Shown piece by piece: positions 7,388 to 18,327 of a DNA stretch of 26,815 bases. Both the position numbers and the translations under genes were made by a program. A model generated the notes under the pieces. The model saw only the letters and a program-made list of their open reading frames with translations, was not told the origin of the DNA and did no database searches. Source of the DNA: a virus. The DNA lies in the IMG/VR virus record IMGVR_UViG_3300043449_000873, positions 1 through 26,815 of that record; one strand, written 5' to 3'. Position 1 is the stretch's first letter. Every line of letters starts with the position of its first letter.

Positions 7388-8926
7388 TCATTTCAGTTGA
7401 TAAATTAATGCGTCTTTAGGGAACGTGTAAGAACCATTAACTATTTTAAATTTACTATTATCAAAAATTAATACTCCTTTACCTTTTCTAGCAAATATTA
7501 ACCAATCAGTTGTATATTTTTTAACTTGACCAGTATTCAAAACCGTAATCTCATTATTTTCCTCAACAATATTACCGTAAGGTTTTATTTGACATGTTTT
7601 AGTTTGACCATTTAAAATCACTTTACAGTCAATTCCTTGAATCATGTCTTCTTTATTCCCTAATTCCCCAATCTGTTCAACGTTATCGTCACCAAATTCT
7701 TTATTAAGGACCTCAACTGCATAATCTTCAGTTTTCCCACCCATCGTGTGTGTTGAACCTAAAGTCATCATTATATTTTTAAAAGTTTCTGAATTGGTAT
7801 TAAAAATTCTTGTTTTATATTGGTCTATAATTGATATTAATTTTTTAGTGTTACTTATTTGAACAAACGGAGGTAACCCAACCATTTTTAATTCAGGTTG
7901 ATTTGACGCTTTTAAAACTTTATTAACATCTCGTAATAAAATACAAAAACAACTATAATTAGTATTTAATTTATTTATCACTGACCTACCATCACTTTCT
8001 AAATCATAAATTCCTGACATAGAACCTTCGGAGTACTTATCTTTATCATAAAAATTATTGGGAAATACTTTTTTTAATATATCATCAATACCATACCTAA
8101 ACATGTTTTTAACTTTTGGGTTGACGTTGAATATGAATCTTATTGCCTCATTCATTTCACGGCTACACTTTTCACCAACACTTTCGGTAAGAATTTTTTT
8201 AACCATTAAACTTTCATTTAATTTTGTTTTGTCTTTTAATAAAAATAATTTATTAACAAACTCCCAATTAACAACATCCCAAAAATTATTGATATATTCG
8301 TCTTTTTTATTTCTATATTTTAAGTAATATGAGTGTTCCCACAAATCCAAACCTAAAATTGGGTATCCACCATCTTTTACAATATTCATTAATGGATTAT
8401 CTTGGTTTGGGGTTGTTGTAATTTTTAAAGTATTTTTTTTAGTCAAAACTAACCAAGCCCATCCTGACCCAAATCTATCTTTTGCGGACTCCTCAAACTT
8501 TGTTTTAAAATTTTTAAAACTACCGAAACTTTTATTAATTTGTTTTAATAATTCACCTGAAGGTTTTTGTTTTTTAGGTGAGAGCATTTTCCAAAATAAA
8601 GCATGATTAAATGCACCCCCAGCATTATTTCTAACAGTTTTGTCAAATTTACTAATAGATTTAATAATTTCTTCAAGTTCTAAATCACCACCTTTTCTTT
8701 TGGATAACGCGTTATTTAATTTATCAACGTATCCTTTATAATGTTTGTTGTAGTGGTACGTCATAGTTTCAGCATCTATAAATTGTTTTAATGCTGAGTA
8801 AGAATAAGGTAATTTTTCTATACCTATTTTTTTCATTTCAAGAAGAAAAAGATTTTCATTTTCTCTTTCTTCATGTAAGATTAACGATTCATTTATTAAG
8901 TTAATCTTATCTTGTATTTTTTTCAT
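7388..8926 (-). CDS. Mn-type superoxide dismutase fused to a PD-(D/E)XK nuclease-like domain, with prohead-protease-like sites
   Basis: 512 residues. Residues ~38-230 are a complete Fe/Mn superoxide dismutase with all four metal ligands: H58 (YHYNKH), H108 (FNHALFW), D194 and H198 (GLDLWEHSYY). AGG at 102-104 before the second His, and Q175 in NQDNPL, fit the Mn-type rather than the Fe-type. The C-terminal half (~250-512) is unrelated to SOD and ends in a nuclease-like core: E400, GID (431-433) and QIK (446-448). The same C-terminal half occurs in the zinc-ribbon protein at 11303-12790. Sites of the form (L/I)xE-S occur at residues 11-14, 236-239 and 246-249, at the N-terminus and at the domain junction. 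I infer a packaged, processed cargo protein. SOD call strong, nuclease call tentative. Confidence 0.85.
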   Translation of the reverse strand: MKKIQDKINLINESLILHEERENENLFLLEMKKIGIEKLPYSYSALKQFIDAETMTYHYNKHYKGYVDKLNNALSKRKGGDLELEEIIKSISKFDKTVRNNAGGAFNHALFWKMLSPKKQKPSGELLKQINKSFGSFKNFKTKFEESAKDRFGSGWAWLVLTKKNTLKITTTPNQDNPLMNIVKDGGYPILGLDLWEHSYYLKYRNKKDEYINNFWDVVNWEFVNKLFLLKDKTKLNESLMVKKILTESVGEKCSREMNEAIRFIFNVNPKVKNMFRYGIDDILKKVFPNNFYDKDKYSEGSMSGIYDLESDGRSVINKLNTNYSCFCILLRDVNKVLKASNQPELKMVGLPPFVQISNTKKLISIIDQYKTRIFNTNSETFKNIMMTLGSTHTMGGKTEDYAVEVLNKEFGDDNVEQIGELGNKEDMIQGIDCKVILNGQTKTCQIKPYGNIVEENNEITVLNTGQVKKYTTDWLIFARKGKGVLIFDNSKFKIVNGSYTFPKDALIYQLK

Positions 8927-8947
8927 ATGGCTTATAATAATATACTA

Positions 8948-8954
8948 ATAAATA
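8948..8954 (-). promoter_or_regulatory. TATTTAT element before the SOD fusion gene
   Basis: Minus-strand TATTTAT, 21 bases before the ATG at 8926, in the 43-base gap after the helicase gene. Confidence 0.45.
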
Positions 8955-8969
8955 AGCCGATATTTTGAT

Positions 8970-10736
8970 TTATCTCAAAGAGTTAATTCTATTCATCATC
9001 TCTTCAACAATGTCAGTTTTATCTAAATTGTCTCCCATAACAGTTTCAAATATATTTTTCTTGTTTGCCAAAATGTCATAAATAACACCTTCGATAGTGT
9101 TTTCAAATATGGGGTAATATACTGACACGTTTGATTTTTGACCATATCGATACGCTCTATCCTCAGCTTGTGAGTGGTCAGAAGGTACAAAAGACAGGTC
9201 ATTCATAATTACCGCTTCACCAGCAGTTAATGTTAATCCGACCCCTGCGGCTTTAAGGTTCCCAACAAAAACTTTAATTTTTTCGTTCTCTTGGAATTGG
9301 TCTACGGCATATTGTCTTTGTGGTTTACTTGTACTACCATCTAACCTAACCGCTTGTTTACCAAAATGGTCTGCAATTTTATTAAGAGTATCTGTAAAAT
9401 TAGTAAAAATAATTACTTTTTTATCTTGGTCTATAATATTTTGTGCGAGTTCAATTGTATTTGAAATTTTCTCTTCTGCTATTACTTGTCTAACCTTCAT
9501 TAATTTTGAAAATTGGACTGTTAATGAATTTGATTCTTCTTTTTTGTTATCGTACCAATCATAATATTCACCCATTAAATTTTCATACATTTTAGATTTT
9601 AATCTAAGGTAGACAGGTGTAATAATTTTATCTGGTAAATCTAAAACATCGGTTTTTAATCTCCTCAAGACTTGTCTCGAAGTTCTATCTCTTAATTCTT
9701 CTAAATTTGATGCCCCTGAAACGTTCCATATTTTACGATTACCCGCTTTAAACTGATAACCTTGACAGTATCTGATAGCATAAGCCATCCAATTTTGTGC
9801 AACAGGACTTTCAATTAAACTAAGTAGATTAAAATAATTCATTGGTCTTGAAGTCATTGGAGTACCTGTGAGTAACCAAAGCCTTTCTGTTCTTTTACTA
9901 AAACTATTAACTAATTTAGTTCTTTGAGCCTGACCATTTTGTATATAATGTGCCTCATCAATAATAATTAAATCAGGGTTAAATTGGTATATTAAACTTT
10001 CCTCTTTGTTTTTACCTGTATCATAAAAGTTTTTTAATATATCATAATTAACAATTACAAAATCATGTTCTAATGAAAAATTTTTACCTTCGGCAATGTA
10101 AACACTTCTATTCGTGTAATTAGAAATTTCTCTTTGCCAATTTATTTTTAAAGATGCGGGACAAACTATTAATATTCTTTTAGCCCCTGTCTCTAACGCG
10201 GCGATTATGGTTGATGTTGTTTTACCTAAACCCATATCATCGGCTAAAATATATCTTTTTGAACCTGTTAAATTCTCAATAGCGATTATTTGGTGAGACA
10301 GTGGGGGTCTATGGGAATACTTTGAATAGTCAATATTAACTTTTTCTATTTTATGGGTTTTTAATAAAGCACCTTTTGGTAACCAAAACTCGTGTAAAGA
10401 TTCATTTTCAAAAAATTTACCCCATATATGATAAGATTTTTCTTTTTCTGCCAATAACTTCTCAACCCAAACTTGTTTAGGGATTGTCATAAATAATTTT
10501 TCGTCCGCAATTTTTTTAGCGAAATAAGGGTCCATATCGACCCACTTACGAGCAACTTTTGGTTTTACATCGTAATAATTTATTATATAATCAGATTGCG
10601 CTCTGGTCGGGTAAAATTTCTTATTACTTTCTTTTTTACTTTTGATGTATAAAATATAGTTATTTGCACCTGAATATGTGTCAAGGATATTCATTGCTTT
10701 AACTTCTATTAGGTTAGAACTATTTTCTACATTCAC
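8970..10736 (-). CDS. SNF2-family DNA helicase/translocase
   Basis: ATP-dependent translocase of helicase superfamily 2, SNF2 type. 588 residues with all motifs in order: Walker A DDMGLGKT (166-173), DEAH (260-263), TGTP (290-293), the C-lobe FTNFTDT strand (~444-450), LDGSTS (465-470), AGVGLTLT (497-504) and motif VI QAEDRAYRYGQ (523-533). The arginine-finger region is intact. About 140 N-terminal residues are not recognised; the architecture resembles small SMARCAL1-like or bacterial single-protein SNF2 enzymes. In T4 a different SF2 helicase, UvsW, remodels replication and recombination forks; a similar role here is inferred. It is the first gene of the leftward unit, read from a divergent promoter region. 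Confidence 0.93.
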   Translation of the reverse strand: MNVENSSNLIEVKAMNILDTYSGANNYILYIKSKKESNKKFYPTRAQSDYIINYYDVKPKVARKWVDMDPYFAKKIADEKLFMTIPKQVWVEKLLAEKEKSYHIWGKFFENESLHEFWLPKGALLKTHKIEKVNIDYSKYSHRPPLSHQIIAIENLTGSKRYILADDMGLGKTTSTIIAALETGAKRILIVCPASLKINWQREISNYTNRSVYIAEGKNFSLEHDFVIVNYDILKNFYDTGKNKEESLIYQFNPDLIIIDEAHYIQNGQAQRTKLVNSFSKRTERLWLLTGTPMTSRPMNYFNLLSLIESPVAQNWMAYAIRYCQGYQFKAGNRKIWNVSGASNLEELRDRTSRQVLRRLKTDVLDLPDKIITPVYLRLKSKMYENLMGEYYDWYDNKKEESNSLTVQFSKLMKVRQVIAEEKISNTIELAQNIIDQDKKVIIFTNFTDTLNKIADHFGKQAVRLDGSTSKPQRQYAVDQFQENEKIKVFVGNLKAAGVGLTLTAGEAVIMNDLSFVPSDHSQAEDRAYRYGQKSNVSVYYPIFENTIEGVIYDILANKKNIFETVMGDNLDKTDIVEEMMNRINSLR

Positions 10737-10765
10737 TATATCAATACTTATCTTTAATAAAAATA

Positions 10766-10772
10766 ATAAATA
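10766..10772 (-). promoter_or_regulatory. TATTTAT element before the SNF2 helicase gene
   Basis: Minus-strand TATTTAT, 29 bases before the ATG at 10736. Only six bases separate it from the plus-strand copy at 10779-10785, forming a divergent pair. Confidence 0.5.
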
Positions 10773-10778
10773 GTAATA

Positions 10779-10785
10779 TATTTAT
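10779..10785 (+). promoter_or_regulatory. TATTTAT element before the gp14-like gene
   Basis: TATTTAT five bases before the ATG at 10791. It is the right half of the divergent pair, and the very short spacing suggests a leaderless or nearly leaderless message. Confidence 0.5.
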
Positions 10786-10790
10786 CAATA

Positions 10791-11303
10791 ATGAATAATA
10801 AAGTACCAATTACAAGGGTCGGTAAATTTTTTGGTTCCGATGATTATAACCTTGATTTATCTATAGGTGAAGAATGGTTATATGGTGATATGAACTTTAC
10901 GTTAGTTCTTTATAGAATAGATAGAATTAAAACCAAAACTGATGATGTTTATGGTGAAACAGTGAAAGATGGGATTAAATTTTTACCTCCTGTTGAGTTT
11001 AAAGGTTACGTCCAAATAATGGCTCCTGAAAATAAAACCATAGGGACATCAAAAGTAAATCAATTTGAGCCTGGTAATATAAAAGTTTCAGTTTATATCA
11101 AACATTTAGAGGAATTAGGTGTGGACATTAACTATGGTGATTATATAGGATATTACGAAACTGAAGATAAAGTTAGGTACTATGTAGTTAATAATGATGG
11201 TAGAGTAGTATCCGACAATAAACATAATTATGCTGGGTACAAACCTTATTATAGAACAATTGGTGGTTCCGCAGTTACAGAAAATGAATTTAGAGGATTA
11301 TAA
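10791..11303 (+). CDS. Possible neck/head-tail connector protein (gp14-like position)
   Basis: 170 residues, beta-rich and acidic. Notable segments are YRIDRIKTKTDDVYGE, KFLPPVEFKGYVQIMAPENK, HLEELGVDINYGDYIGYYE and a C-terminal GYKPYYRTIGG. No signal peptide or membrane segment is visible. It opens the rightward neck-tail cluster that continues with a gp15-like tail terminator and the sheath, the position gp14 or a connector occupies in T4-type phages. It is shorter than T4 gp14 (256), and I see no decisive motif. Its TAA overlaps the ATG of the next gene by one base (TAATG), so the two are translationally coupled. Confidence 0.55.
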   Translation: MNNKVPITRVGKFFGSDDYNLDLSIGEEWLYGDMNFTLVLYRIDRIKTKTDDVYGETVKDGIKFLPPVEFKGYVQIMAPENKTIGTSKVNQFEPGNIKVSVYIKHLEELGVDINYGDYIGYYETEDKVRYYVVNNDGRVVSDNKHNYAGYKPYYRTIGGSAVTENEFRGL

Positions 11304-12790
11304 TGAAAATCATTTTAAGTGAAACTCAAATTATATCATTATTAGAGAAAATAAATTCTAATGAAGTTACTTGCGATAAATGTGGGTGGTCTTGGGATTT
11401 ATCTGACGGTGGTGATGACCCATATATTTGCCATAAATGTGGACATAGTAATTCTGAAGAAGATTATGTTGGTAAAAAAGTAATGGTTTATTACAATTTA
11501 CATAAACATACATTCTCAGTTACTTATAAATCAAAAGTTGTATTACACGCAGATTATGTTAAATTAAAAGATGTTGAGTTTAGGGTTAGAACTGGTGGTA
11601 AAGAAAAAGTTAGAAATGAAAAAAGAAAAAATGTTCACGCATTTGTAATAGGAAAATTAGTAGATTTTTGTGAACACCCATGTAAAGATTTACCAAAAGA
11701 AAGTTCTTCTAAAATAGTTACTTATGACCCTTATAAGTATGATACTTTTGTTTATAAAGATACTGAAGAACCTGTCCACACTGCTAAAGAGATTGATATG
11801 ATTAATCATAGAAACAAATTATTCGTAATTTCTGAAATTAAATCGTCTTTAAATGAAAGTGAGGAAGTTGATGGTCCACCAAATAAGTTTACATACACTA
11901 CAATAGGATTATTCCAAAAAGGTACAACTAAAAGATATTACTTTAATGACCCTAAACCTGTTGATGGTGAGGATATTCCTGACGGCATGATTGGTATTAA
12001 CGGTGCGTTAGGTAATTTTTTATTTACTAAGAATGATGTTGGGTTTGACTCAAAAAATAATAAATTATTTGTTAGCAAAGATATTTTAGATTCTAAATAT
12101 AATGGTATAAAAAGTAATAGTGACGCTGAAAAAATTGGTATCACACCTATTAAAATTAGAGAGGCGTTAAAAAAAGCGTTTCCTTCTAATTGGCATGAAG
12201 AAGATTCAATATTCACTGCGGGATTAAGAGACGTATATAGTATTGGTGAAAAAACAAATGATGGGGAAGAGACTTGGTCTATAATGAATTACTTCGATAC
12301 TAAACCTGAAATACATGCTCTACTTTATCTAAAATATATGGATGAAAAATCTAATGAGGAGATAGTTGAGTGGATGTCAAATCTTTTTAGAAATGATGAA
12401 GAATTTACAAAATTGTTAGTTAATAGACAATGGTCTTCAATAGAGAACGGTTTAAGACTTGAGAGAGACTCTGTTTCTAATTTTCTAAATAAAATATCAA
12501 AAGGAAACGTAGTATATTATCCTCACGGTTCTAAAATGGATAGATGGTCAGGAGTTGACGTTACAATTGAAGGGGTTAATTACCAAATTAAACCTTTAAA
12601 ATCTTATGAAGAAGAGAATGGTGTATTTACAGTCAATACTTATGGTATGAGAGATTATACATCAAAAACTAAATTAGATAAAATAGCTTTTGCAAATTCT
12701 AAAGAAGCGTTAGTTTTTGATAATAAAAATTACAACGTGGTTAGTCGTAACAAAGCAGTATTTAACCAAACTCCAAATATTATAAATTAA
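11303..12790 (+). CDS. Zinc-ribbon protein with PD-(D/E)XK nuclease-like C-terminus, with prohead-protease-like sites
   Basis: 495 residues. The N-terminus MKIILSE-T matches a (L/I)xE cleavage rule at residues 5-8. A four-Cys zinc ribbon follows (C24, C27, C43, C46; CDKCGWSW...CHKCGH). Next is a basic beta-rich module (~55-120) with NLHKHTFSV and RKNVHAFVIG. A second site, LNE-S, lies at 183-186, before the C-terminal half. That half matches the SOD fusion protein: LKKAFPSNWHEED (289-301) against LKKVFPNNFYDKD there, then E387, GVD (417-419), QIKP (428-431), an EEN/TVNT segment and LVFDN (470-474). The E...D...QxK spacing suggests a PD-(D/E)XK nuclease fold, unproven. It lies between the possible gp14-like and gp15-like genes, coupled to the former by a TAATG overlap with GAGG upstream. 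Confidence 0.8.
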   Translation: MKIILSETQIISLLEKINSNEVTCDKCGWSWDLSDGGDDPYICHKCGHSNSEEDYVGKKVMVYYNLHKHTFSVTYKSKVVLHADYVKLKDVEFRVRTGGKEKVRNEKRKNVHAFVIGKLVDFCEHPCKDLPKESSSKIVTYDPYKYDTFVYKDTEEPVHTAKEIDMINHRNKLFVISEIKSSLNESEEVDGPPNKFTYTTIGLFQKGTTKRYYFNDPKPVDGEDIPDGMIGINGALGNFLFTKNDVGFDSKNNKLFVSKDILDSKYNGIKSNSDAEKIGITPIKIREALKKAFPSNWHEEDSIFTAGLRDVYSIGEKTNDGEETWSIMNYFDTKPEIHALLYLKYMDEKSNEEIVEWMSNLFRNDEEFTKLLVNRQWSSIENGLRLERDSVSNFLNKISKGNVVYYPHGSKMDRWSGVDVTIEGVNYQIKPLKSYEEENGVFTVNTYGMRDYTSKTKLDKIAFANSKEALVFDNKNYNVVSRNKAVFNQTPNIIN

Positions 12791-12795
12791 GAAGA

Positions 12796-13833
12796 ATGGC
12801 TCTACCTAAAAAAATAAAAAAATATATTCCACTAACAGAATCTAAAACTTTGTTACCCAGAAGACATGAGTTATTAGATAAGATTAATAAAGATGGTACT
12901 TATTTACCGAAATCAATTTTACATGCGGATTTAGATAAAGGTTTTTTGGATTTTGTTAAAGACGAATTAAAATGTGTTGTTGAAGGTAGAACAATACCAA
13001 TGGTGGATATTTTAGTTACAACACAGAATTGGACTCAGTTTATTGAAACATGGGATTTTCAAAATATTGATAAAAATGCCGAACCACCATTTATAACGGT
13101 CATTAGAGTTCCTGAAGTTAAATTTGGTACTAATCCTGCGGTGTTATATAACATACCAAATAGACGACAATATTTTTATGCACAGGTCCCAACTTGGGAT
13201 GGACAAAGAGCAGGTATGGATATATACAAAATACCTCAACCTGTTCCTGTAGATATTACATATCAAGTTAAGATTGTGTGTAATAGAATGAGAGAATTAA
13301 ATCAATTCAATAAAATTGTAATTGAAAAGTTTGCATCCAAACAAGCTTACCAAGTAATTAAAGGTCATTACATACCAATAATAAATGGTAATATATCTGA
13401 CGAATCAGTAATGGATGTTGAAAAAAGAAAGTATTATATTCAAACTTATGAATTTACTATGTTAGGATTTCTTATGGATGAGGACGAATTTCAAGTATCC
13501 CCAGCAGTTACTAGATTATTACAAGTTGTTGAGGTTGACACTAAAACCTCAAGAAGACAGGTTAAAAAAATGCCTTCGATAGAGAAGGACCCCACAGAAA
13601 TTTTATTTGTAGTTGGTAATGACACAATTTCTCAAGTATTTGATTATGTTGCAGATATTAAGATAGTAGGAACTGAAAATATTGACGGATATGATGTGTT
13701 TATAAATAACGATTATTATGGTACTGATATAAGTACAATTCAGATAAACACAAATGATGTATTAAAGTTTACTATAACTAAGACAAATATTAACCAAGAA
13801 TCAAAAATATTATTATACGGAATTTTAATTTAA
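12796..13833 (+). CDS. Putative tail terminator/sheath-stabilising protein (T4 gp15-like)
   Basis: 345 residues, soluble. The core at ~150-250 has the gp15 pattern: PVDITYQVKIVCNRMRELNQF, a long helix, HYIPIINGN, then KRKYYIQTYEFTMLGFLMD. In T4, gp15 is a hexameric ring closing the top of the tube and sheath and joining tail to head. The C-terminal ~70 residues form an additional beta-rich module (KDPTEILFVVGNDTISQVF and onward). It lies five bases after the zinc-ribbon gene, and the sheath gene is the next rightward gene, as expected for a tail cluster. The N-terminus contains IPLTES, which also fits a (L/I)xE-S site, but a tail protein has no obvious reason to be cut there. Call based on pattern and synteny. 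Confidence 0.6.
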   Translation: MALPKKIKKYIPLTESKTLLPRRHELLDKINKDGTYLPKSILHADLDKGFLDFVKDELKCVVEGRTIPMVDILVTTQNWTQFIETWDFQNIDKNAEPPFITVIRVPEVKFGTNPAVLYNIPNRRQYFYAQVPTWDGQRAGMDIYKIPQPVPVDITYQVKIVCNRMRELNQFNKIVIEKFASKQAYQVIKGHYIPIINGNISDESVMDVEKRKYYIQTYEFTMLGFLMDEDEFQVSPAVTRLLQVVEVDTKTSRRQVKKMPSIEKDPTEILFVVGNDTISQVFDYVADIKIVGTENIDGYDVFINNDYYGTDISTIQINTNDVLKFTITKTNINQESKILLYGILI

Positions 13834-13994
13834 TTCTCACCGTATATATCCTTTTTTTCTTTACATTTTTCAATAATAAGTCTTTCTAAAAATCTATACA
13901 TCTTAACTCCATTTTTATCACAATATTTTTTTAATATGTCGTGAACCTCAACTGAAATCTTTAAATTCTTTATTTTTTTATCATTATTTGACAT
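13830..13994 (-). CDS. Small ribbon-helix-helix (CopG/Arc-like) transcription regulator
   Basis: 54 residues, MSNNDKKIKNLKIS...YGEN. The fold is readable: a short strand (KNLKISVE), helix 1 (VHDILKKYCDKNG), a turn, and helix 2 (VKMYRFLERLIIEKCKEKK). This is the ribbon-helix-helix layout, in which a dimer inserts its paired strands into the major groove. It lies antisense between the tail-terminator and sheath genes, and its stop overlaps the convergent gene's end by four bases. Directly before its ATG are an 18-base inverted repeat and an extra half-site, then a TATTTAT element, so autoregulation is likely. It may also influence the nearby sheath promoter. Strong for fold, inferred for function. 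Confidence 0.75.
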   Translation of the reverse strand: MSNNDKKIKNLKISVEVHDILKKYCDKNGVKMYRFLERLIIEKCKEKKDIYGEN

Positions 13995-14023
13995 GGTAGA
14001 AAAAAGGTAGAATTTATTCTACC
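13995..14023. promoter_or_regulatory. Operator-like inverted repeat at the start of the RHH regulator gene
   Basis: GGTAGAAT (14006-14013), two bases, ATTCTACC (14016-14023): perfect 8-base arms. A third half-site GGTAGAA (13995-14001) lies in direct repeat next to the RHH start codon. The cluster sits between the TATTTAT element and the ATG of the regulator, the place for an autoregulatory operator. Confidence 0.6.
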
Positions 14024-14029
14024 CAATTT

Positions 14030-14036
14030 ATAAATA
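14030..14036 (-). promoter_or_regulatory. TATTTAT element before the RHH regulator gene
   Basis: Minus-strand TATTTAT, 35 bases before the ATG at 13994 and upstream of the inverted repeat. The plus strand reads TATAAATA here (14029-14036), the T4 late promoter core, so either direction is possible. Confidence 0.45.
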
Positions 14037-14073
14037 GTTGCATCAAAGTAAAGTATTTTGGGTTTTTTGATAA

Positions 14074-14080
14074 TATTTAT
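14074..14080 (+). promoter_or_regulatory. TATTTAT element before the tail sheath gene
   Basis: TATTTAT, 37 bases before the ATG at 14118, the longest spacing seen. The rest of 14024-14117 is A/T-rich leader with no recognisable ribosome-binding site. Confidence 0.5.
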
Positions 14081-14117
14081 CTATAAAAATAAATTAACTA
14101 GATAAATTAAATTAATA

Positions 14118-17100
14118 ATGGCATCTAACAACAAAGTATTCGTATCTCCTGGGGTGTACACATCAGAGGTGGATTTAAGTTTTGTAGCACAAAGTGTTGG
14201 GGTTACAACTTTAGGAATTGTTGGTGAGACTTTAAAAGGTCCTGCTTTCGAACCTATCTTTATAAGAAACTTCGATGAGTTTACTACATATTTTGGAGGA
14301 ACTTCCCCTGAAAAATTCATTAACACACAAATACCTAAATATGAAGCGGCTTACATCGCTAAATCATATCTACAACAGTCTAATCAATTATTTGTAACAA
14401 GAGTATTGGGATTGTCAGGTTATGACGCAGGTCCTTCATGGTCTATTACCACAAAGGCAAACGTTGACCCAAAAACAGTTGGTTTCTTTTGTGAAGACCC
14501 TGTGATTAGTAATTGTCAACCTGATTGTAATGATTATTTAACAATTGATTATTCAATAGACTTCTCAGGTTGCACTAATGATGTAAATAGTATATCATTT
14601 GTAACCCCATCTCAAATACCTGATGAAATCTCATCAAAAATGAATTTGTCATATGAAAAATTTAATGGGTCAACATCAACTTTATATCAAGATATGACGA
14701 CTCAAATTTTTGAGATATTAAATGATAATTCATTAGAGATGACATCTATTAATTATTATGGTGCGATATCAGGAGAAACATATGATGTTTTATCACCAAT
14801 ATTCACCGCAGAAACAAATGTTTTCGGTGTTAATAATGTTAGTGCGTCTTTAATTGATTATAGTGATTCTGTTAATGACCCTTGGTATTACGCGACTTTT
14901 GATAATATTGGAAATGCGGTTTATAGTGGTTTTTCATATTGGAGTATTGTTACAGATTTGGCATTAGTTCCTCTAACTACAACCACAACGATGGTACCAG
15001 TAACAACAACGACAACAACTAATCCTTGTGTTACACCTGTACCTACCTCAACTACAACTACAACAACTGCGGCGCCTGTAAATTGTTATACAGGTAAATT
15101 GGTTGGTAGATTATATGTTTTCTCAGGAACTGCATATACTGACTACGACGATTTAGTTATTGCAACATTACGTTCAAGAGGTTTAGCGACTTATGGTAGT
15201 GACGACGGTGCGGTTTATGAAGTATCAGGTTTAACTGATGTTGAAATGGTATGTGGTAATGAATATTCAGCAGTTACTAAAAATCCTTACTCTACATTTG
15301 GTTTAAATGTTAAAGATAAAGATGGTAATAAATTCTTCTTTGAGACATCATTCTCAAATTCAGATAGTAAATACCTACCAAAAGTATTTGGGTCTTCAAA
15401 CTTTGCAAAACCTAAAGATGTCGTTCCATTATTTGTGGAGGAAAGATTCCAATCTTTATTAAATTATGCTTGGAGAAAGGGTTATATTAGAGGTTTGAAT
15501 TGTGAACTAACCGCATTACCAAACGCTAGACAAGGTAACGACCCAACGTCAATAGCTTGGTACTTAGAAAAATATCAATCACCAGTTTCTCCTTGGGTTG
15601 TATCTGAATTAAGAGGTAACAAAGTTTATAACTTATTTAAAGTTACTACAATTGCGGACGGAAACGCGGCGAACATTGAGGTAAAAATATCAATTGCAAA
15701 CATATCATTTAATAATGGAACATTTGATGTTTTAGTTAGAGATTTCTTTGACTCTGATTCGGCACCTACAGTTCTTGAAAAATTCACTAACTGTTCTATG
15801 GACCCAAATCAAAATAACTTTATCGCTAAAAAAATAGGTACTGTTGATGGGGAGTACGCATTAAACTCTAAATTTATTATGGTTGAGATTAATGAAGATG
15901 CACCTGTTGACGCACTACCTTGTGGATTCCAAGGTTATTCATTTAGAGAGTATGCAGGAGTAAGACCCCCATTCCCAATTTATAAAACTAAATACGATTT
16001 TCCAGGTGAAGTAGTATATAACCCACCATTTGGATTATCTTCAGGGGCTGATGATATTGTTAGAAGTCCTGGTGATAATATTCGTAGAACTTATTTAGGT
16101 ATCTCTGACACAGTTGGATTTGACGTTGATTTCTACGGATATAAAGGAAAACAATTACCATTAGATATTTGTACTGATGTTAGTGGTGAGGATTGGTTCT
16201 ACAAAACAAGAGGTTTCCACATGGACATAAATGCTTCAGCAATCACTATTGGAAATAGTTTTATTACAAGTGGTGCTCCAGCGTTCTTTGCAGGTTCTGC
16301 TCCATTTACAAGTGACCCTGAAGATTCATCAAATCCTTACTTTAGATTATTTGCACGTAAATTTAGTTTCCTATGTTCGGGCGGTTTTGATGGATGGGAT
16401 ATCTATAGAGAAAGAAGAACTAACGAAGATAAATTTGTCTTAGGTCAAACAGGATATAGAAAAGGTGCTTGTCCATCATTTAAGTACCCTACCGCAACAG
16501 GTTGGGGAGCGTTTAAACAAATCACTGTTGGTGATAATACTCAAGATTGGGCAAACACTGACTATTACGCATACTTGTTAGGTCAAAAAACATTTGCGAA
16601 CCCTGAAGCGGTTAACATAAATGTATTTGTAACTCCAGGTATTGACTATGTTAATATGTCTAACTTAGTTGAGGATGCGGTTGACATGGTTGAAAATGAT
16701 AGAGCGGACTCAATCTACATTTGTACAACACCTGATTACAATATGTTAGTACCTACAACAGGAGACCAATTAGACTTTATCTACCCTCAAGAAGCGGTTG
16801 ATAACTTAGAAGAGTCAGGAATTGATTCAAACTATACCGCAACTTATTACCCTTGGGTTCTTACAAGAGATAGTGTTAATAATACACAAATTTATATACC
16901 ACCAACGGCTGAAGTTACAAGAAACTTAGCGTTAACAGATAATATCGCGTTCCCTTGGTTCGCGGCGGCTGGTTACACTCGTGGTATTGTAAATGCTATT
17001 AAAGCGAGAAAGAAACTTACTCAAGAAGATAGAGATGTTCTTTACAAAGGTAGAATTAACCCGATTGCAACTTTCTCAGATGTGGGTACAGTAATTTGGG

Positions 17101-17447
17101 GTAATAAAACTTTACAAATTAGAGAATCTGCATTAGATAGAATCAACGTTAGAAGATTGTTATTACAAGCACGTAAATTGATTTCTGCGGTTTCTGTAAG
17201 ATTATTATTTGAACAAAACGATGAGAAGGTAAGACAAGATTTCTTAGATGCGGTTAACCCTATCTTAGATGCAATTAGAAGAGACAGAGGTCTTTATGAC
17301 TTCCGAGTAACAGTATCTTCAGACACTGCAGATTTAGATAGAAACCAATTAACAGGTAAAATTTATATTAAACCTACTAAATCTTTAGAATTCATTGATA
17401 TTACATTCTATATAACACCTACAGGTGCTTCGTTTGATAATATCTAA
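14118..17447 (+). CDS. 18: Contractile tail sheath protein (T4 gp18-like) with large Thr-linked insertion
   Basis: Main subunit of the contractile sheath around the tail tube. 1109 residues against 659 in T4 gp18. The N-terminus is typical (FVSPGVYTSEVDLS, then GIVGETLKGPAFEPIFI and FDEFTTYFGG). The C-terminal part (~880-1109) is also typical: YPWVLTRD, IPPTAEVTRNLALTDN, FPWFAAAGYTRG and GRINPIATFSDVGTVIWGNKT, ending in the conserved polymerisation and domain-swap strands. The excess length lies in the middle, including two Thr runs (287-291, 296-301) and a third ending in TTTTTTAAP (312-320), followed by an inserted beta-rich domain with paired Cys residues. Such insertions sit on the outer surface of the sheath and tolerate variation. 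No Shine-Dalgarno is visible. A hairpin follows the stop. Confidence 0.93.
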   Translation: MASNNKVFVSPGVYTSEVDLSFVAQSVGVTTLGIVGETLKGPAFEPIFIRNFDEFTTYFGGTSPEKFINTQIPKYEAAYIAKSYLQQSNQLFVTRVLGLSGYDAGPSWSITTKANVDPKTVGFFCEDPVISNCQPDCNDYLTIDYSIDFSGCTNDVNSISFVTPSQIPDEISSKMNLSYEKFNGSTSTLYQDMTTQIFEILNDNSLEMTSINYYGAISGETYDVLSPIFTAETNVFGVNNVSASLIDYSDSVNDPWYYATFDNIGNAVYSGFSYWSIVTDLALVPLTTTTTMVPVTTTTTTNPCVTPVPTSTTTTTTAAPVNCYTGKLVGRLYVFSGTAYTDYDDLVIATLRSRGLATYGSDDGAVYEVSGLTDVEMVCGNEYSAVTKNPYSTFGLNVKDKDGNKFFFETSFSNSDSKYLPKVFGSSNFAKPKDVVPLFVEERFQSLLNYAWRKGYIRGLNCELTALPNARQGNDPTSIAWYLEKYQSPVSPWVVSELRGNKVYNLFKVTTIADGNAANIEVKISIANISFNNGTFDVLVRDFFDSDSAPTVLEKFTNCSMDPNQNNFIAKKIGTVDGEYALNSKFIMVEINEDAPVDALPCGFQGYSFREYAGVRPPFPIYKTKYDFPGEVVYNPPFGLSSGADDIVRSPGDNIRRTYLGISDTVGFDVDFYGYKGKQLPLDICTDVSGEDWFYKTRGFHMDINASAITIGNSFITSGAPAFFAGSAPFTSDPEDSSNPYFRLFARKFSFLCSGGFDGWDIYRERRTNEDKFVLGQTGYRKGACPSFKYPTATGWGAFKQITVGDNTQDWANTDYYAYLLGQKTFANPEAVNINVFVTPGIDYVNMSNLVEDAVDMVENDRADSIYICTTPDYNMLVPTTGDQLDFIYPQEAVDNLEESGIDSNYTATYYPWVLTRDSVNNTQIYIPPTAEVTRNLALTDNIAFPWFAAAGYTRGIVNAIKARKKLTQEDRDVLYKGRINPIATFSDVGTVIWGNKTLQIRESALDRINVRRLLLQARKLISAVSVRLLFEQNDEKVRQDFLDAVNPILDAIRRDRGLYDFRVTVSSDTADLDRNQLTGKIYIKPTKSLEFIDITFYITPTGASFDNI
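14976..15077 (+). repeat. Thr-rich low-complexity linker in the sheath (ACA/ACT/ACC codons)
   Basis: Encodes sheath residues 287-320: three runs of five to six Thr separated by Pro, Val, Cys and Met, ending TTTTTTAAP. Nearly the same coding string recurs at 24993-25016 in the giant baseplate gene (TTTTTTAAP followed by Pro). Confidence 0.75.
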
Positions 17448-17458
17448 AATAAAATAAT

Positions 17459-17497
17459 ATGGTAAGTCGGTGTAAAAATCGACTTACCATTATTTAT
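17459..17497 (+). terminator. Hairpin after the tail sheath gene
   Basis: Perfect 11-base stem ATGGTAAGTCG/CGACTTACCAT (17459-17469 with 17480-17490) and a 10-base loop. The tail is TATTTATATA rather than a pure T run, so termination may be partial. The promoter element TATTTAT begins at the base after the stem. Confidence 0.6.
17491..17497 (+). promoter_or_regulatory. TATTTAT element before the HAD gene
   Basis: Eight bases before the ATG at 17506 and directly abutting the upstream hairpin. Confidence 0.5.
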
Positions 17498-17505
17498 ATA
17501 ATGAT

Positions 17506-18327
17506 ATGAATAGAAACAAAAAATATTTAATAGAGGGTATTGACGAGACAGGAACACCTGACATGAAATATTACGCCTTTGATTGGGATGATAATATCAT
17601 GACAATGCCGACTAAAATAATTTTAAAAGACGATAAAGGTAAAGAAGTTGGTATGTCAACCGAAGACTTTGCAGAGTACAGAACAGAGATTGGTAATGAG
17701 CCATTTGAATATGAGGGGAAAAAAATTGTTGGTTTTGCAGAAAACCCATTCAGATATTTTGGTGTAGAGGGAGACAAACAATTTGTAGTCGACTCAATGT
17801 TGGCTAAAACAGGTCCCGCATGGAATGACTTTGTCGAGGCTATTAATAACGGCTCAGTATTTTCAATTATAACCGCTAGAGGACACACCCCAAATGTTAT
17901 TAAAGAGGCGGTGTATAATCTAATCGTGTCAAACCACAACGGTATAAGTTCAACAGAGTTAATTAAAAATCTTAAAAAATATAGAGAACTTGCGGATGAA
18001 GATAATATGTCAAATAGGGAGTTAATTAAAAACTATCTTGACTTATGTAAATTTTATCCTGTTAGTTATGGAGAAGGTTCCGCCACAAATCCTGAAGAAG
18101 GTAAAATTAAAGCGATGAAAGAATTTATACAATATATTAGAGAGATTTCTGAAGATATTAATAAGAAAGCATATTTAAAGAACAAAGTATCTAATAATTT
18201 TAAATTACCTAGTATTGGTTTTTCAGATGATGATATTAGAAATGTAGAGAAAATGAAAACTCATTTTGAAGATGAACCAATATTGAAAACGTATTCAACT
18301 GCAGGAGGAATTAAAAAACTTTATTAA
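17506..18327 (+). CDS. HAD-superfamily phosphatase, likely cargo gene in the tail cluster
   Basis: 273 residues. HAD motifs: I, FDWDDN with nucleophile D26 and D28; II, IITARGHTP with T123; III, a Lys before the last motif (K233, or K202 in EEGKIKAM); IV, GFSDDDIRNVEKM (D241-D243). The likely reaction is hydrolysis of a phosphomonoester; the substrate cannot be told. The ~95 residues between motifs I and II, and the helical stretch after motif II, would form a cap domain. The N-terminus NKKYLIE-G fits the (L/I)xE rule (residues 8-11), as in the two fusion proteins of this window. It separates sheath from tube, genes normally adjacent in T4, and has its own promoter element and flanking hairpins, the layout of an inserted accessory gene. 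Confidence 0.85.
   Translation: MNRNKKYLIEGIDETGTPDMKYYAFDWDDNIMTMPTKIILKDDKGKEVGMSTEDFAEYRTEIGNEPFEYEGKKIVGFAENPFRYFGVEGDKQFVVDSMLAKTGPAWNDFVEAINNGSVFSIITARGHTPNVIKEAVYNLIVSNHNGISSTELIKNLKKYRELADEDNMSNRELIKNYLDLCKFYPVSYGEGSATNPEEGKIKAMKEFIQYIREISEDINKKAYLKNKVSNNFKLPSIGFSDDDIRNVEKMKTHFEDEPILKTYSTAGGIKKLY

Follow-up and report, generated by a model that had tools for sequence, protein, structure and literature searches.

The stretch analysed here (the window) is a 26.8-kb viral fragment, IMG/VR record IMGVR_UViG_3300043449_000873, positions 1 to 26,815. Its genes include T4-type tail genes for sheath, tube and baseplate, and others for a phage DNA polymerase, an SNF2-type helicase and accessory proteins. 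The source is probably a large T4-like myovirus, for which we infer Bacteroidota as the probable host. Large myoviruses of Bacteroidota described in the literature (PMC9723584) resemble it in their late-gene region and are probably of the same kind as the window phage. Relatives of the window among viral contigs reach 322 kb, and a near-identity search of isolate phages with the window gave no match. The tail sheath protein (14118-17447) contains threonine-rich low-complexity inserts.

Three accessory genes are considered here. The first lies on the minus strand at 7388-8926 and encodes a 512-residue fusion of a superoxide dismutase (SOD) with a nuclease-like half. The SOD is of the Fe/Mn type (Pfam Sod_Fe_N and Sod_Fe_C, E 2.6e-23 and 4.1e-41), with a fold match over residues 37-233 at Z of about 21-22, and the predicted mature enzyme comprises residues 31-238 (8213-8836). 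It is followed by a junction peptide, residues 239-248 (8183-8212), that runs from LNE/S to LTE/S (slashes mark predicted cuts), and by the nuclease-like half, residues 249-512 (7391-8182), recognized by homology and by the conserved E400, D433 and QxKP (446-449). In an alignment of 29 sequences sharing less than 90% identity, position 238 is Glu in 29/29 with L or I at P3 in 28/29, and position 248 is Glu in 28/29 with L or I at P3 in 28/29. At the N-terminus, the preliminary description had proposed INE-S, residues 11-14 (8885-8896), where E13 is retained in 23 of the 29 sequences and P1' is mostly Gln. It had missed E30, which is Glu in all 29 sequences with L or I at P3 in all 29 and lies at the start of the SOD fold. 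Normal SODs start at about the position of E30/M31. As judged from the alignment, the propeptide likely ends at E30/M31 and not at INE-S; it would then consist of residues 1-30, ending FLLE/M (8837-8926), with INE-S as a weaker internal site that is doubtful as a cut site. A conserved Glu with L or I at P3 in at least 90% of the sequences occurs at E30, E238, E248 and E197 and at no other position of the SOD fusion; E197 belongs to the WEH motif of SODs, and the other three mark the edges of the SOD domain. In the structure model, pLDDT is below 50 over residues 11-43 and 232-251, which cover E30, E238 and E248. At least 599 pattern-matched relatives of the fusion occur in viral contigs. Among isolates the SOD domain alone was matched, with no record covering 80% of the fusion. 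An SOD with a different partner, of roughly 650 residues (L368, 3598-6333), retains a similar double site (KLKES..VITEQ).

The second gene, on the plus strand at 11303-12790, encodes a 495-residue fusion identified through PF25735 and alignment as a Zn-ribbon, a Mycobacterium phage L5 gp82-like domain and a nuclease-like half. The protein begins with MKIILSE/T, a predicted capsid-loading tag of residues 1-7 (11303-11323). An insert at about residues 20-52 (11360-11458) forms the Zn-ribbon in the alignment; L004 and L009 lack it or have it in shortened form. The gp82-like domain, residues 57-170 (11471-11812), matches PF25735, the Mycobacterium phage L5 gp82 family, at E=6.7e-31 (107 bits, cut-off 27). 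The same domain is present in 769 Mycobacterium phage records and also in Bacillus phages, Mater and phiNIT1 among them, where it lies in the terminal repeats; in phages of this type such repeats usually carry early host-takeover genes. A junction site, LNE/S (11849-11860), precedes the nuclease-like half, residues 186-495 (11858-12787), in which fold comparison places a PD-(D/E)XK-like core at about residues 382-495. In an alignment of 12 sequences, E7 and E185 are invariant (12/12) and P3 is always L or I amid variable surroundings. The linker around E185 is variable and gapped, and pLDDT is below 50 over residues 179-191.

The two fusions share a homologous C-terminal half. For the half in the Zn-ribbon fusion, NhoI, Hjc and DpnI make up the top 12 fold matches (Z 5.0-7.1), with unrelated structures at 3.0 or below. 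A Foldseek search with the Zn-ribbon fusion gave nothing at E <= 0.001, and its best coherent match, a weak one, was Hjc (probability 0.66). The invariant residues E400, D433, Q446 and K448 of the SOD fusion and E387, D419, Q428 and K430 of the Zn-ribbon fusion supply the acidic and (D/E/Q)xK residues that characterize the PD-(D/E)XK superfamily. The fold comparison is moderate evidence for a PD-(D/E)XK-like fold, and the shared half is regarded as a putative nuclease. It also occurs as a free-standing protein with its own N-terminal tag, MKELIKRILTE/S in L089 and MKITISE/GQY in L165, where the gene lies between the protease and scaffold genes.

The third gene, at 17506-18327 on the plus strand, encodes a HAD-type protein of 273 residues with 35 homologues. 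A Pfam search gave no match, so the assignment to HAD depends on the motif FDWDDN. A propeptide of 10 residues ending LIE/G is predicted (17506-17535); hydrophobic-x-E/G is present in 28 of 32 homologues, mostly 7-10 residues from the start, and the homologue in L429 (11-910) carries a class A tag, one of the two tag classes treated below.

The preliminary description had proposed that these three proteins carry (L/I)xE cleavage sites, at their N-termini in all three and at the domain junctions in the two fusions. The translations confirm its six quoted sites at the residues given, namely INE-S 11-14, LNE-S 236-239 and LTE-S 246-249 in the SOD fusion, LSE-T 5-8 and LNE-S 183-186 in the Zn-ribbon protein, and LIE-G 8-11 in the HAD-type protein. 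Short motifs of this kind are frequent, and 15 window proteins, together about 6,800 residues long, contain 22 instances of [LI]xE[STG]; presence by itself is thus weak, and the evidence lies in conservation. The tail protein encoded at 12796-13833 on the plus strand contains a look-alike, LTES (12832-12843), that the preliminary description did not name. It was rejected as a part of the system and taken as a chance occurrence, its Glu being found in just 24 of 55 homologues, and it illustrates that such motifs are not always meaningful. A first conservation filter proved too strict, since E238 was the sole site to pass it, and sites were ranked instead. When all 98 (L/I/V)xE sites in 13 window proteins were ordered by pair conservation minus flank identity, the six named sites took ranks 1, 2, 3, 5, 6 and 11. 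That the motifs arose by chance is therefore a negligible possibility, because few motifs of this type stand out from their flanks by conservation as strongly as the named sites do; conservation rules chance out for five of the six, INE-S 11-14 being the exception. By these alignments, all six sites are genuine and under constraint. Homologues retain them in general; at the N-termini the proposal held for E7 of the Zn-ribbon protein and E10 of the HAD-type protein and was weak for the SOD fusion, in which E30 is the better candidate, and at both junctions E238, E248 and E185 proved invariant or nearly so with L or I at P3.

In phage T4, the prohead protease gp21 cleaves on the C-terminal side of L/I-x-E, and a segment of 10 residues at the start of the internal protein IPIII is enough for packaging (PMC9026906). 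A gp21-type (S77) protease was sought. The window fragment lacks it (PF03420 gave no match within the window, as expected of a fragment, and gp23 is likewise absent from it), and relatives encode it, including contigs with the SOD fusion. S77 was present in 9 of 18 first-round contigs, that is, in 9 of the 10 that carry gp23. Among the matches listed, 28 tag-bearing contigs are 120 kb or longer; of these, 19 carry S77 and 20 carry gp23, and both genes are present in 11/11 of the listed tag-bearing contigs above 215 kb. A control with size-matched contigs selected by a P-loop pattern was set aside because mostly small contigs were returned. The comparison with the capsid protein agreed with the expected specificity, as the gp23 maturation site in 21 close-clade sequences reads LINE/A at the T4 position. 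P1' is A in gp23 and often S, T or Q in the tags. Orthologues encoded near gp23 in L165, L166 and L167 have differing leaders and similar sequence after the site (VLRE/ASGDSGG, HINE/STSDGGG and HISE/ATSDSSG), which resembles gp23 INE/ATSDGS. These proteins (L165, 15607-16338; L166, 6713-7234; L167, 10526-10954) combine the gp23-like N-terminal site with a class B-like C-terminal helix.

Our preferred reading, to which we give about three chances in four, is that the SOD fusion, the Zn-ribbon/gp82 fusion and the HAD-type protein are head cargo with capsid-targeting peptides that S77 removes, and that the two-enzyme polyproteins are separated in the prohead. While the prohead assembles, the basic-hydrophobic N-terminal peptide would dock the cargo on the scaffold core or on the inside of the capsid wall, and the gp21-type protease would cut after (L/I)xE to take the targeting peptide off. 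The same protease would cut the fusion junctions, so that one gene would load two enzymes in equal amounts and have them parted inside the head. The pairs released would be SOD with a PD-(D/E)XK-like nuclease, and the Zn-ribbon/gp82 protein with a second nuclease from that family. When the virion infects its next cell, the released proteins would exit the head together with the DNA. Packaging and cutting are proposed by analogy with T4. Injection is proposed on the same grounds and with less certainty than the other steps, and any role of these enzymes inside a new host is likewise conjectural. The interpretation of the preliminary description is supported as a whole, and two outcomes that would have spoken against it, relatives without a gp21-type protease and homologues without the sites, were not observed. 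Points that count against the preferred reading are the shortness of the (L/I)xE motif, the difference in P1' between gp23 and the tags, the want of a clear scaffold match for the tags in the clade of the window, and the absence of protease and gp23 genes from the window.

It may also be that the tags do target the head core and are cut there, and that the junctions are flexible linkers left over from an old tag of the nuclease, with the fusions remaining whole and bifunctional. The free-standing nuclease-like half with its own tag fits this idea, as the junction sites may then be fossils, and the linkers are modelled as disordered in both fusions. A fossil site should decay, however, and the junction Glu and its L or I are invariant or nearly so amid varying neighbours and varying linker length; the double site is also kept in the SOD of L368 with its other partner. 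Whole bifunctional fusions are consequently considered unlikely.

The proposal of targeting peptides extends beyond the window, since similar tags are found on many other proteins. Two tag patterns, class A and class B, were scanned across viral contigs, and the counts given here come from the matches listed. At least 232 complete, non-redundant tagged proteins of both classes fall into at least 147 body clusters that are unrelated to one another at the BLAST level applied, so that near-identical N-terminal tags stand on at least 147 otherwise unrelated bodies. Class A alone occurs on at least about 65 unrelated clusters. The leader of the window Zn-ribbon fusion is class A-like, and those of the SOD fusion and the HAD-type protein are looser. 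Class B is a 22-residue amphipathic basic pattern that ends abruptly at I/L-x-E. Its search pattern selects residues 1-12 only, and among the matches listed residue 22 is Glu in 77/83 and residue 20 is I or L in 76/83; residue 21 is variable, and conservation stops right past E22. Near-identical 5' ends on unrelated genes would also be expected from module shuffling, with the shared starts acting as a DNA-level cassette whose function lies, for example, in recombination or expression and whose translation is incidental. The tag codons vary synonymously and the upstream DNA carries almost no information, which indicates that selection acts on the peptide; the codon variation largely rules out such a cassette, and it is regarded as very improbable.

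Pfam searches with 105 tagged representatives matched, among others, families of lysozyme, M23 peptidase, cell wall hydrolase, ECF sigma factor, RNase T-type exonuclease and L5 gp82. In L188 (G001 at about 314-319 kb), several neighbouring genes each carry a class A or class B tag and may form a cargo cluster. Another tagged protein (L352, 3585-4127) has a start, LYHGS..GL, that is reminiscent of ADP-ribosyltransferases, with no Pfam match. The tag peptides used as tblastn queries against isolates gave no match, 20-23 residues being short for tblastn, and a search of open-access text found no paper that prints these sequences.

A sister clade comprises Flavobacterium phage immuto and contigs related to it. 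Its N-terminal tags, for instance NEQFLKMQKLAGVITE/SQY and MEKQINEQFLKMQKLAGVITE/SQY, have their match at the C-terminal ends of scaffold proteins, for example ESNEVFARMQRLAGIN and SEQVSRWQKLAGIIK. In the culturable immuto 2-6A, gp077 and gp083 are among the proteins with such tags. The scaffold-tail motif was found 18 times at protein ends and 0 times in 263,544 internal residues. By sequence likeness, the tag apparently mimics the scaffold tail in this clade. In the clade of the window, comparison of class A and class B tags with the scaffold gave no clear match, and the likeness of class B to the scaffold of that clade (EEIKELVKESLNEQ) was too weak to count. In two large uncharacterized proteins (L139, 8536-11316; L132, 16191-18608), the scaffold-tail motif is present at the N-terminus and again at the C-terminus.

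The tags might also dock proteins to the baseplate, a replication compartment or a membrane, with the Glu serving as a helix cap. The amphipathic basic character of the 22-residue class B tag and the variable P1' are compatible with such a role, as are the tagged peptidoglycan hydrolases, which could act somewhere other than the head and so count against the preferred reading. The exact I/L-x-E end, the variable P2 and the abrupt stop of conservation nevertheless follow the rule of a prohead protease, and a place in the head is also indicated by the scaffold-tail copy and by the gp23-like residues that follow the site. Docking outside the head is accordingly judged distinctly improbable. The wider form of the head-cargo reading, in which a widespread clade of giant T4-like phages has a general cargo system with a portable peptide, in some lineages copied from the scaffold tail, on well over 100 unrelated proteins and a prohead protease that parts enzyme pairs for injection, is given barely better than an even chance.

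The kind of system is already known from the T4 internal proteins, and what would be new is polyprotein cargo together with the apparent mimicry of the scaffold. The likeness to T4 IPI-III and Alt lies in a short N-terminal L/I-x-E peptide common to unrelated proteins and in a gp21-type protease, here seen in relatives (PMC9026906). The differences from T4 are the at least 147 clusters of candidate cargo bodies, a longer tag type of 22 residues, internal sites in two-enzyme fusions, and predicted cargo that consists of enzymes (SOD and a PD-(D/E)XK-like nuclease). In phiKZ-like phages and SPN3US, the N-terminal propeptides of ejection proteins are cut after Glu by the gp21-related proteases gp175/gp245; the SPN3US propeptides are mostly long (111-254 residues), with two of 20-24, and the accessible portion of that report describes no portable tag on unrelated families (PMC10052503). 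DarA of phage P1 and related anti-restriction proteins, likened here from the descriptions in the accessible portions of the sources, are packaged in the head and act in the next host (PMC9024508, PMC12810830). The cytidylyltransferase T4-GC190 of cyanophage S-SM1 has been reported in virions by mass spectrometry (PMC3037559). It starts MKKFSAFLNE/A, and its Syn9 orthologue starts MKKFSAFLSE/A; a motif scan of the S-SM1 gene calls gave four matches, and T4-GC190 alone resembles a T4 leader. It is thus a single case of a virion enzyme with a 10-residue LNE/A start, and cleavage is not mentioned in the accessible part of that text (PMC3037559).

Overall, if the head-cargo reading is true, the tag would be a general packaging signal that reaches beyond the T4 model, and the head protease of a phage would part enzymes as the proteases of animal viruses do. 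The reading would also suggest a route by which a virus-encoded SOD and nuclease enter the host as soon as infection begins. A tag at the gene start would then list the proteins, mostly of unknown function, that many uncultured aquatic phages inject.
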